From contig NZ_BLLI01000010.1 in assembly GCF_011170085.1 (NCBI RefSeq), forward strand, positions 1-44,778: a stretch of DNA of 44,778 nucleotides, in the 5' to 3' direction. The stretch's first letter is position 1. Each line of letters opens with the position of its first letter. The position numbers and the translations under genes are program-made. The notes beneath the pieces are model-generated. The model was not told the DNA's origin, made no database searches, and was given only the letters and a program-made list of their open reading frames with translations. Origin of the DNA: Pseudolactococcus hodotermopsidis. GTDB taxonomy: Bacteria; Bacillota; Bacilli; Lactobacillales; Streptococcaceae. Below are positions 9,022-11,102 of the stretch, piece by piece.

Positions 9022-9213
9022 AGTCGTTTGTTGGTAAATTTGGAGTTGATGAAAACAGGCTTACCACCTATTGATATTAAGTTTACGGATAGACTAAGTT
9101 ACTATGATGCTTTTGATGAATTTCATGTTAAGCATAATTTGCTTGCCATACAAAAATTATTTGCTGGTTATGTCATTGAGCGGTTGGATGAGTATTTGGT
9201 TATTTTGGATTAG
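9022..9213 (+). pseudogene. C-terminal remnant of a Fic family protein
   Basis: Read in the frame ending at 9213, the sequence from SRLLVNLELMKTGLPPIDIK to DEYLVILD matches the C-terminal part of Fic-domain proteins (AMP transferases), where RLLxNxxLMxxGxPPI follows the catalytic HPFxxGNGRT motif. Everything up to and including that motif is missing: the homology begins five bases after the stop of the upstream DUF4143 gene. No start codon and ribosome site fit it, so it is a relic without activity. It suggests that a DUF4143-type gene replaced or cut into a fic locus. Confidence 0.7.
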
Positions 9214-9239: not shown

Positions 9240-11102
9240 TTACTCGGATGAGAGGTCAAAAAAATCAGAGAAGTATTTATTTTTAATTGTATTTTGTAAT
9301 GCTAGATTTTCCTTTAGCTGATTCTTTGCTTTATTCTCAAAATTTGCATCAATTGAGCTATTAGCAATACCACCAAGAATTTCGTTATGTTCTAATGTAC
9401 AAATTTGGAGCATACTTTCGTAATTATTTGTTTCTAATATATCAGAAATTTTCTTTTTAAACTTTGTTTCCTCTGTGGATAAAACAGAGAAAAGAGATTT
9501 TAATTCTTCAATATTTTGGTCTAAGGGAATTTTCGTATCGTAACCTCTGTCTGATAATGTTTGCTCAAAAATTTTCTTAATTCTTCTTTGAATAATTAAG
9601 TCTTGTTTGTCTGATAACAGTGTCTGAAATTTTGTTTTAAACTCATTAATTTTAGTACTAATTTCAGGTTCAGGAAAATTGTTGCTTAACACTGCTTTAA
9701 AAATAGCTTCATCACATAACATCATTTCAATTTCTAGAAATTTGGTAGTAAAAACAAAATCATTTCTTAATCGCTCTTGTTCATCGTCAGTTCTTAAATC
9801 ATTATCAATAATGCCATATGCTTTATTAGAAAATATACTATTTTGATCATTATATGCTTTTACATACCGATGAACGTTTAGACAATTTCCAACAGGAATG
9901 ACCGTTAAATTTGGAAATAAAACAGAATACATAGCATAATCAAGGCTATGTTTCTCCCCTTCACAAAAAATAACATCTTTTTTAACCCCTGTTAATTCAA
10001 CAAGTAGCTCTTTTGGAAATAAGTTGGTGCTCTCGTTTTCAAGTAAATCTAATGTCCAATTGTCTGGAAATATGAAACCTTTACACCAAATAAAATCAAC
10101 ATCTACACGACTCTCAATAAAATCAATTCTGTGTGAGATATAGATAAATCTACAATCTGCTCTAAGCTGTTCAAGTTCATTCCATAAGCGATTATATATT
10201 GAAGTATTCAGATACATTTCTGGTTCATCGATAATAATTGTTGCATTAGGAACAGCTAATAAAACTTGAATGATATAGTAAATTATAACTTTTTCACCGT
10301 CACTCATTTGATCAATAGTATATGGTTGGTTATTTTTGATAGGAATAATTTGTTTTAGGATAGTATCAGGTTTATCGAAACTTATATCTGGTATTATTTT
10401 CTCATATAAAGTTTTGAACTTAAAGAAAATATTATCAGTATCATCATCTTTTTTAATCTGACCGTAATAGGCTTTTTGTATATCTTTATCAGACTCGTTT
10501 ACTAAGGCAGTTATTAATTTTTGGAAGAAGAACCTTTCTTCTAGGTTATCGGATTTAACATCTTTCCTAGATAGTTCATTTTGAATACTCTTACGATCCA
10601 TTGCATGATCGTAATTTACATCTGATGAAAATAGATTTTTACGTGCGGGAATGACGGCTATTCCGTTACTACCTCCTTTTTTAAAGAAATTAGCTAATGA
10701 AGATTTTCCGCTACCATTTCCTCCAATAATTACAGCATTTTTTTCACCATCAATAGGAACTAAATATCTCAATTGTTTTAATTGATCATTTATCGAAGAT
10801 AATTGATTGAGTGAACTGTTTGGGTAGTGTTCTGGAAGAGGTTCGTTAGAATCGTGATAAAATCTAAAATTTCGAAGGATATTTGTAAATAAATTTTGGA
10901 TATTATTTGAAAATTGCTTTTTATTTTCAATAACGTCAATTAAATCTTGATAGTTTCTGTTAAATTTTTCAAGTTGATTATGGAATTTATTTTCGTCGTC
11001 ATTTTTCCAATCGATTCCATCTGTCTTTATTTGACTTTGGAATTTATCAATGTGTTCTTTAATCTCACTTAAAATTGACAGTAATGTTTCTTTTGTATTC
11101 AT
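9240..11102 (-). CDS. AAA ATPase-TOPRIM (DUF4435-like) protein, PARIS-like single-gene defence protein
   Basis: 620 residues. An ABC-type ATPase comes first: Walker A GGNGSGKSS (127-135), signature MSDGE (266-270), Walker B ATIIIDEPE (287-295) and a switch histidine in YISHR (H324). It is followed by a TOPRIM-like half with VIFCEGEK (Glu381) and IIDND (Asp433, Asp435), then LEIEMML, which resembles DUF4435. AriA (ATPase) and AriB (DUF4435 nuclease) form the PARIS phage defence system, and merged AriA-AriB forms are known; OLD nucleases are the alternative with a similar plan. It has an AAAGGAA ribosome site, lies alone between a Fic scar and def on the opposite strand, and is clearly more AT-rich than its neighbours, which suggests transfer. 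ATPase part certain; PARIS assignment inferred. Confidence 0.7.
   Translation of the reverse strand: MNTKETLLSILSEIKEHIDKFQSQIKTDGIDWKNDDENKFHNQLEKFNRNYQDLIDVIENKKQFSNNIQNLFTNILRNFRFYHDSNEPLPEHYPNSSLNQLSSINDQLKQLRYLVPIDGEKNAVIIGGNGSGKSSLANFFKKGGSNGIAVIPARKNLFSSDVNYDHAMDRKSIQNELSRKDVKSDNLEERFFFQKLITALVNESDKDIQKAYYGQIKKDDDTDNIFFKFKTLYEKIIPDISFDKPDTILKQIIPIKNNQPYTIDQMSDGEKVIIYYIIQVLLAVPNATIIIDEPEMYLNTSIYNRLWNELEQLRADCRFIYISHRIDFIESRVDVDFIWCKGFIFPDNWTLDLLENESTNLFPKELLVELTGVKKDVIFCEGEKHSLDYAMYSVLFPNLTVIPVGNCLNVHRYVKAYNDQNSIFSNKAYGIIDNDLRTDDEQERLRNDFVFTTKFLEIEMMLCDEAIFKAVLSNNFPEPEISTKINEFKTKFQTLLSDKQDLIIQRRIKKIFEQTLSDRGYDTKIPLDQNIEELKSLFSVLSTEETKFKKKISDILETNNYESMLQICTLEHNEILGGIANSSIDANFENKAKNQLKENLALQNTIKNKYFSDFFDLSSE

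Follow-up and report, generated by a model that had tools for sequence, protein, structure and literature searches.

The window, a stretch of 44,778 nucleotides from contig NZ_BLLI01000010.1 of Pseudolactococcus hodotermopsidis, contains a merged PARIS-like gene, referred to here as ariAB, whose 620-codon reading frame on the minus strand is intact (Table 1). It is the single copy in its source genome, and its start codon is preceded by a good ribosome-binding-site-like motif. The G + C content of the gene is 28.5% (GC3 20.8%), compared to 44–47% for clpE, def and uvrB, in agreement with an earlier note on this sequence, which had described a 620-residue protein on this strand, AT-rich against its neighbors. 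The gene is part of a 3.8-kb insertion separating clpE and def, which also carries a 433-aa AAA_14/DUF4143 ATPase gene, assigned to the PADLOC candidate family PDC-S01, and the remnant of a fic gene. The statement of the earlier note that ariAB stands alone therefore had to be corrected, as the candidate gene shares the same insertion. The broken fic gene mentioned there could be recognized: the remnant (9034–9210) has matches in 13 plasmid records, with a coverage of 80% or more in each case and the best with 68%, and six of the eight matches listed carry a Fic annotation.

The distribution among related genomes is as expected for an imported locus, which had likewise been proposed. In all 12 genomes of the genus that were searched, the source genome included, def and uvrB are present, and both the ariAB-like gene and the AAA_14/DUF4143 gene are missing from all 11 sibling genomes. 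In eight of ten sibling regions clpE adjoins def without ariAB or its neighbor gene, with a clpE-def gap longer by a few hundred bases in one of the eight (L094); in the remaining two (L091 and L099), clpE is absent from the stretch read. In the sibling genome G005, a bacteriocin-like locus is located beside def (L091, 1375–6079), with GG-motif peptides and an ABC exporter of the peptidase type recognized by eye, and for this reason the def-side site may be a hotspot. The scan of the window for expression signals resulted in 27 promoter-like sites (18.3 expected, sd 5.0) and three terminator-like sites (2.3 expected); on these counts, no promoter or terminator is claimed. No Rfam match was obtained in the window at the gathering threshold.

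Table 1. Features of the ariAB insertion, with positions in the window and the evidence for each.
Feature	Position	Strand	Evidence
ariAB-like merged PARIS gene	9240..11102	-	620 aa, ATG start; Pfam and PADLOC matches
Ribosome-binding-site-like AAAGGAA	11109..11115	-	precedes ATG; read from sequence
N-terminal helical extension, residues 1-118	10749..11102	-	length split, core tree, low-confidence helical prediction
ABC-type ATPase domain, residues 119-345	10068..10748	-	AAA_21; structure match AriA 8ux9_B
Walker A, residues 127-134 (G127..K133)	10701..10724	-	alignment and sequence reading
ABC signature SDGE, residues 267-270	10293..10304	-	alignment and sequence reading
Walker B D292-E293	10224..10229	-	alignments and sequence reading
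H-loop His324	10131..10133	-	invariant, 40-row alignment
AriB-like TOPRIM/DUF4435 half, residues 366-620	9243..10007	-	DUF4435; predicted model; AriB match
TOPRIM Glu381	9960..9962	-	invariant in 40-row and 45-row alignments
TOPRIM D433-x-D435	9798..9806	-	invariant in 40 rows; D433 ≥90% conserved in 45 rows
E457-x-E459 acidic pair after DxD	9726..9734	-	invariant (40- and 45-row alignments)
AAA_14/DUF4143 ATPase gene, 433 aa	7716..9017	+	PADLOC candidate PDC-S01, 6.9e-138; Pfam
fic gene C-terminal remnant	9034..9213	+	plasmid-record matches; stop read

The reading of the protein as PARIS-like, with an ATPase joined to a DUF4435 half, was supported by profile searches. Both AAA_21 (1.3e-7, 32.4 bits) and DUF4435 (2e-14, 54.3 bits) score above the Pfam cut-off of 27. 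In PADLOC, the merged-PARIS profile AriAB (PDLC02982) matches residues 173–617 with 5.1e-90, followed by the other AriAB model with 2.3e-13, and GajA reaches 9e-4; the single profiles of AriA and AriB, which the earlier note had suggested as a check, yielded 1.6e-11 and 1.3e-10, respectively. The AriAB profile matches all 40 members of an alignment of the family. Furthermore, a match to PHROG 25246 (2.5e-92) was obtained, and the family is thus represented in a library of phage proteins.

The Walker A, SDGE, Walker B and H-loop motifs as well as E381, D433 and D435 are located at the residues given before. Invariant residues of the 40-row alignment are G127, K133, S267, G269, E270, H324, E381, D433, D435, E457 and E459; at least 90% of the rows share D268, D292 and E295. 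All 12 long-form rows of a first alignment retain E293, the usual catalytic glutamate. At this position the Bacteroidales-type short forms L046–L048 and L050–L054 carry a serine, and ATP hydrolysis may be weak or absent in that branch. Residue 154 (10641–10643), belonging to a PAQK-type motif after Walker A, is arginine in the window protein, where the first alignment has glutamine in its remaining 11 rows; it varies among the short forms, too.

The full-length AlphaFold2 model, based on 45 sequences, reached a mean pLDDT of 82 and a pTM of 0.59, with a low-confidence N-terminus. Its N-terminal ~110 residues are predicted to be helical, as had been read from the sequence, and for residues ~1–110 no Pfam family was found above the cut-off; a match to WXG100 was rejected, as its E-value of 0.15 is at chance level. 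In a Foldseek search with this model, the Gabija GajAB entry 8u7i_A ranked first (7.1e-6, TM 0.22) and AriA was absent among the best 50 matches listed. The ATPase domain was compared using VIA-align on the Foldseek top 1000 and matched AriA (8ux9_B) with a Z of 13.6 and an rmsd of 3.7 over 210 aligned residues. The closest ATPase folds are those of retron/Septu PtuA with Z values up to 14.6, a tie with or above AriA, and in the profile search against the PDB the retron/Septu ATPases (9e-12) are also found ahead of AriA (6e-7). PtuA works with an HNH partner and is not known to have a TOPRIM half.

The C-terminal half modelled alone reached a pLDDT of 88.8 and a pTM of 0.85. Foldseek ranked AriB first with a modest E-value of 2.2e-3, and VIA-align gave Z values of 11.6 and 10.3 for AriB, 7.1–6.3 for OLD nucleases and 5.5 for GajA, where PDB chains were called AriB from entry titles and chain length. 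On this basis, a TOPRIM-type fold is confidently predicted for this half, and among solved structures E. coli AriB matches it best, above the OLD nucleases. Because the rmsd of the best AriB match is high (8.0 over 209 aligned residues), the folds agree, but superposition is not close along the full length of the domains. The match starts with model residue 1 on AriB residue 11; if no gap intervenes, Glu381 falls on AriB E26, a residue mutated in PMC12409363. The profile of the C-terminal half did not find AriB in the PDB, and its matches look like chance. A best match to class 1 OLD proteins or to another family lacking a DUF4435 signal, or a missing TOPRIM fold, named by the earlier note as outcomes against its reading, were thus not observed.

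Merged forms of PARIS, mentioned in the earlier note, were reported together with the discovery of the system (Rousset et al., 2022; PMC9122126) and are also noted in PMC12409363 and PMC10568477; the window gene therefore belongs to a known kind. With merged PARIS (AriAB, AAA_21 + DUF4435, PDLC02982) it shares domain order, catalytic residues and the profile match, but it has about 90–100 additional residues before Walker A compared to the short forms of this group. The ATPase and AriB folds are also common to the two-gene PARIS of E. coli (AriA with 464 aa plus AriB; 8ux9, 8v45–8v49), where ariA and ariB are separate genes, whereas the window protein is one chain. In addition, its ATPase is compact: model residues 112–345 (234 residues) span AriA 8–444 (437 residues), and the window protein thus lacks a large insertion present in AriA. 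The E. coli AriA has just 7 residues before the matched start and is without the N-terminal domain.

Expression of a separate AriB via a second start was ruled out, as no in-frame ATG, GTG or TTG is located at residues 300–381 and the next in-frame start, M391, lies downstream of the catalytic Glu381. The spacing between the H-loop and the TOPRIM glutamate is 52–60 residues in all 54 proteins in which it was measured, out of 57 fused proteins, which makes a long flexible tether unlikely.

Relatives were retrieved by alignment queries of genome contigs and viral contigs; the single-sequence query of both found none. Among the 57 fused proteins collected, 21 have 117–192 residues before Walker A and 36 have 19–62, a ratio that is not a natural frequency because sampling was guided by the lineage of the window and used listed matches only. 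The 57-row tree includes the window gene (L001) and one open-ended protein (L034). Weak, broken or fragmentary rows and near copies were left out (L003–L006, L009, L014, L016, L018, L020, L021, L023, L055–L060, L068 and L073), the near copies being L016, which is intact, and L014, whose sequence was not extracted. In the core tree, calculated without the extension, one branch parts long and short forms with an SH-aLRT of 99. The same split was obtained without the long branches L043 and L076 (55 rows; bootstrap/SH-aLRT 100/99), and all 200 bootstrap trees explain the length difference by a single change. The N-terminal ~118 residues thus mark a lineage of fused PARIS proteins. The AriAB profile excludes the extension: four other long forms join it at position 41–46 from residues 111–182, and three short forms at position 26–29 from residues 2–3. 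Common ancestry of the extensions was not supported by sequence, since the highest HHalign probability in comparisons of seven sub-lineages was 6.3% and no sequence kinship was detected; solely the position and the core tree argue for a single origin.

The long forms comprise the window protein, relatives from the same family and from further families of the order, including Streptococcus australis, the Oenococcus phage phi9805, Ignatzschineria, two Campylobacterota bins, a Phycisphaerae bin, a Woesearchaeota bin (L028) and three IMG/VR contigs. The Woesearchaeota contig may be misbinned, as its sequence is very close to the Arcobacteraceae copy. Relatives occur in phage as well as plasmid records. 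In phi9805 the long form (L022, 7785–9665) is located on the attR side, directly behind the genes for lysin and Hol44, which is a usual position of lysogenic cargo. Merged AriAB-like genes are also carried by small plasmids of 5–6.5 kb from E. coli and Salmonella (e.g., NZ_CP030330.1 and NZ_CP091609.1).

Several long forms are located in or beside type I restriction loci. For this, tblastn searches with streptococcal and L109 queries were carried out in flanks of <1 kb to 8 kb. In all eight streptococcal genomes with a match, hsdS lies directly upstream and hsdM directly downstream of ariAB; the genus of these genomes was read as Streptococcus because L017 and L029, the latter from S. australis, encode identical proteins. 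HsdR, HsdS and HsdM were confirmed by Pfam in L107 and HsdS in L111, where HsdR and HsdM were found by tblastn. Three further loci belong to two other lineages: in L007/L109 hsdM is the next gene downstream of ariAB (Pfam), in L025, a Sulfurovum bin, hsdS overlaps the ariAB start by 4 bp, and in L028 an hsdR-hsdS-hsdM cluster is located two ORFs upstream. In total, hsd genes are present in the flanks of 9 of the 21 long-form rows versus none of the 36 short-form rows; as six of the nine belong to one streptococcal clade, these are three places in the tree rather than nine. A survey of 32 genomes with the Methylase_S profile (17 matched) allowed no further copy to be placed beside a short-form ariAB, contig numbers being assumed to correspond to records by number. 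The window copy is located outside any type I restriction operon: all Methylase_S and HSDR_N matches of its genome are on contig C5, which carries a type I restriction locus without ariAB.

The streptococcal hsdM was found in 69 of 197 genomes searched (E <= 1e-180), and 1.5 kb upstream of it were read for the 30 best-matching loci. The place directly before hsdM is occupied by AriAB in eight of these (with a broken frame in L136), by a 250–251-aa protein of the PDC-S61 type in 12 (assigned by a scan of one member and by the first residues of the others), by a Gp49/HTH pair in two, by a 192-aa protein in two, by hsdS itself in one and by five single other occupants, including DUF6119 and PDC-S34. 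Several occupants among L115–L144 are without a Pfam or PADLOC match. In the 22 loci without AriAB, hsdS was found within 1.5 kb upstream in 10 and not reached in 12. Where both genes were seen, the slot lies between hsdS and hsdM, and it behaves as a variable cargo slot. With PADLOC defence candidates and unnamed proteins among its occupants, it can be used as a small search tool.

The variation within the protein was analyzed for seven close streptococcal pairs among ten pairs aligned. Identity is 48–80% (mean 60%) in the N-terminus, 42–70% (mean 54%) in the ATPase lobe 159–260 and 51–90% (mean 72%) in the C-terminal helical part (466–620), compared to 76–91% in the TOPRIM domain and 89–99% from signature to H-loop, the least variable part. 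On average, the N-terminal extension and the lobe 159–260 are the fastest changing parts. Between genes that differ in back type, however, the C-terminal helices are just as variable (down to 51%), and variability is therefore not confined to the supposed sensor. Five of six aligned streptococcal genes represent all four combinations of two front and two back types. The first ~400 bases separate L011 and L017 from L013, L015 and L016, and the last ~650 bases separate L011 and L013, along with the sixth gene, L012, from L015, L016 and L017. The middle is a further mosaic; the sharp break is located near alignment base 1200, just inside the TOPRIM half. These combinations are tentatively read as recombination between front and back.

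In the two-gene PARIS of E. coli, AriB is kept inactive on the AriA hexamer and released upon binding of a phage protein such as Ocr; it then cleaves mainly tRNA-Lys, and further targets are tRNA-Thr and tRNA-Asn (PMC12409363; PMC11455837). We consider it likely that the window gene is a single-chain PARIS of the compact-ATPase kind with an added helical N-terminal domain, direct sensing and in-place, tRNA-cutting abortive infection. The N-terminal domain and the variable ATPase lobe would form the surface by which a phage protein, probably one with anti-restriction activity, is sensed, and are placed in this role because they are the most variable regions. An ATP-dependent rearrangement of the oligomer would bring TOPRIM domains of neighboring chains together, which would then cut host tRNA, stop translation and abort the infection. 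One chain, a near-constant spacing and the lack of an internal start suggest that activation of the effector probably takes place within the chain, without its release. The release of AriB in two-gene PARIS counts against the PARIS reading, as a fused chain as such cannot release it; a release by proteolysis may be considered as well.

It is very unlikely that the protein is a class 1 OLD-like enzyme, i.e., an ATPase plus TOPRIM degrading DNA. The lone gene with both domains in one chain, as found in class 1 OLD (PMC10568477), would fit, and GajA likewise unites the two domains; in the structural comparison the TOPRIM domains of OLD nucleases come directly after AriB, and GajAB heads the full-length Foldseek list. 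However, the TOPRIM half is structurally closer to AriB than to OLD, AriAB scores above every other PADLOC family and DUF4435 is above the Pfam cut-off. For Gabija, a GajB-type partner is absent among the neighbors (the PDC-S01 gene, the fic remnant, clpE, def and uvrB). A dead or silent import, in which the frame is intact by chance, could be suspected from the adjoining fic remnant and from broken relatives such as L009, L020 and L136, but the full-length frame, the catalytic residues and the ribosome site make it extremely improbable.

The restriction loci raise another explanation, in which long-form AriAB would be a guard similar to PrrC, docking by its N-terminal domain on the type I complex and firing when a phage inhibits that complex. 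The nuclease part of PrrC is not known to be a TOPRIM domain. PrrC of EcoprrI is encoded within a type I locus, which it is described to guard (PMC12707154). Some of the relatives resemble it in that a gene for a putative tRNA-cutting ATPase is part of a type I operon, and the hsd genes seen next to long forms only, in the flanks read, would agree with such a role. By contrast, the window copy is located outside a restriction operon and 12 of the 21 long-form rows have no hsd gene in the flanks read. As other genes occupy the place before hsdM in 21 of the 30 streptococcal loci read, the position may reflect transport instead of docking. In addition, E. coli PARIS, though another, two-gene form, is described as independent of EcoKI (PMC9122126). 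Altogether, we regard a guard role as quite unlikely.

According to a review, fused AriAB could operate either in the manner of two-gene PARIS or in that of class 1 OLD (PMC10568477); this is testable because the lineage has no second start and an extra domain, and its streptococcal members sit in restriction operons. PARIS is thought to answer the inhibition of such operons, and the relatives located there allow asking whether they stand guard over restriction. It is conceivable, though unlikely, that the N-extended proteins form a distinct class, a fused tRNase coupled to type I restriction by a fast-evolving N-terminal domain, as a TOPRIM counterpart of PrrC without release, of which some copies, like that of the window, would have left the operon and respond to other triggers. 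BREX loci are reported to recruit PARIS-like modules (PMC12839542). A search for PARIS with type I restriction, which took in little of the subscription literature, found no report of an N-extended lineage and no ariAB between hsdS and hsdM, so both lineage and layout may tentatively be called new.

Other genes were also observed within the type I loci. In L111 (3172–6371), a gene for a 733-aa AAA_13 ATPase (PADLOC PDC-S06) and a DUF6261 gene are located between hsdR and hsdS, and in L025 (3551–5153) two ORFs resembling, by eye, an AbiEi/AbiEii pair lie between ariAB and hsdR.
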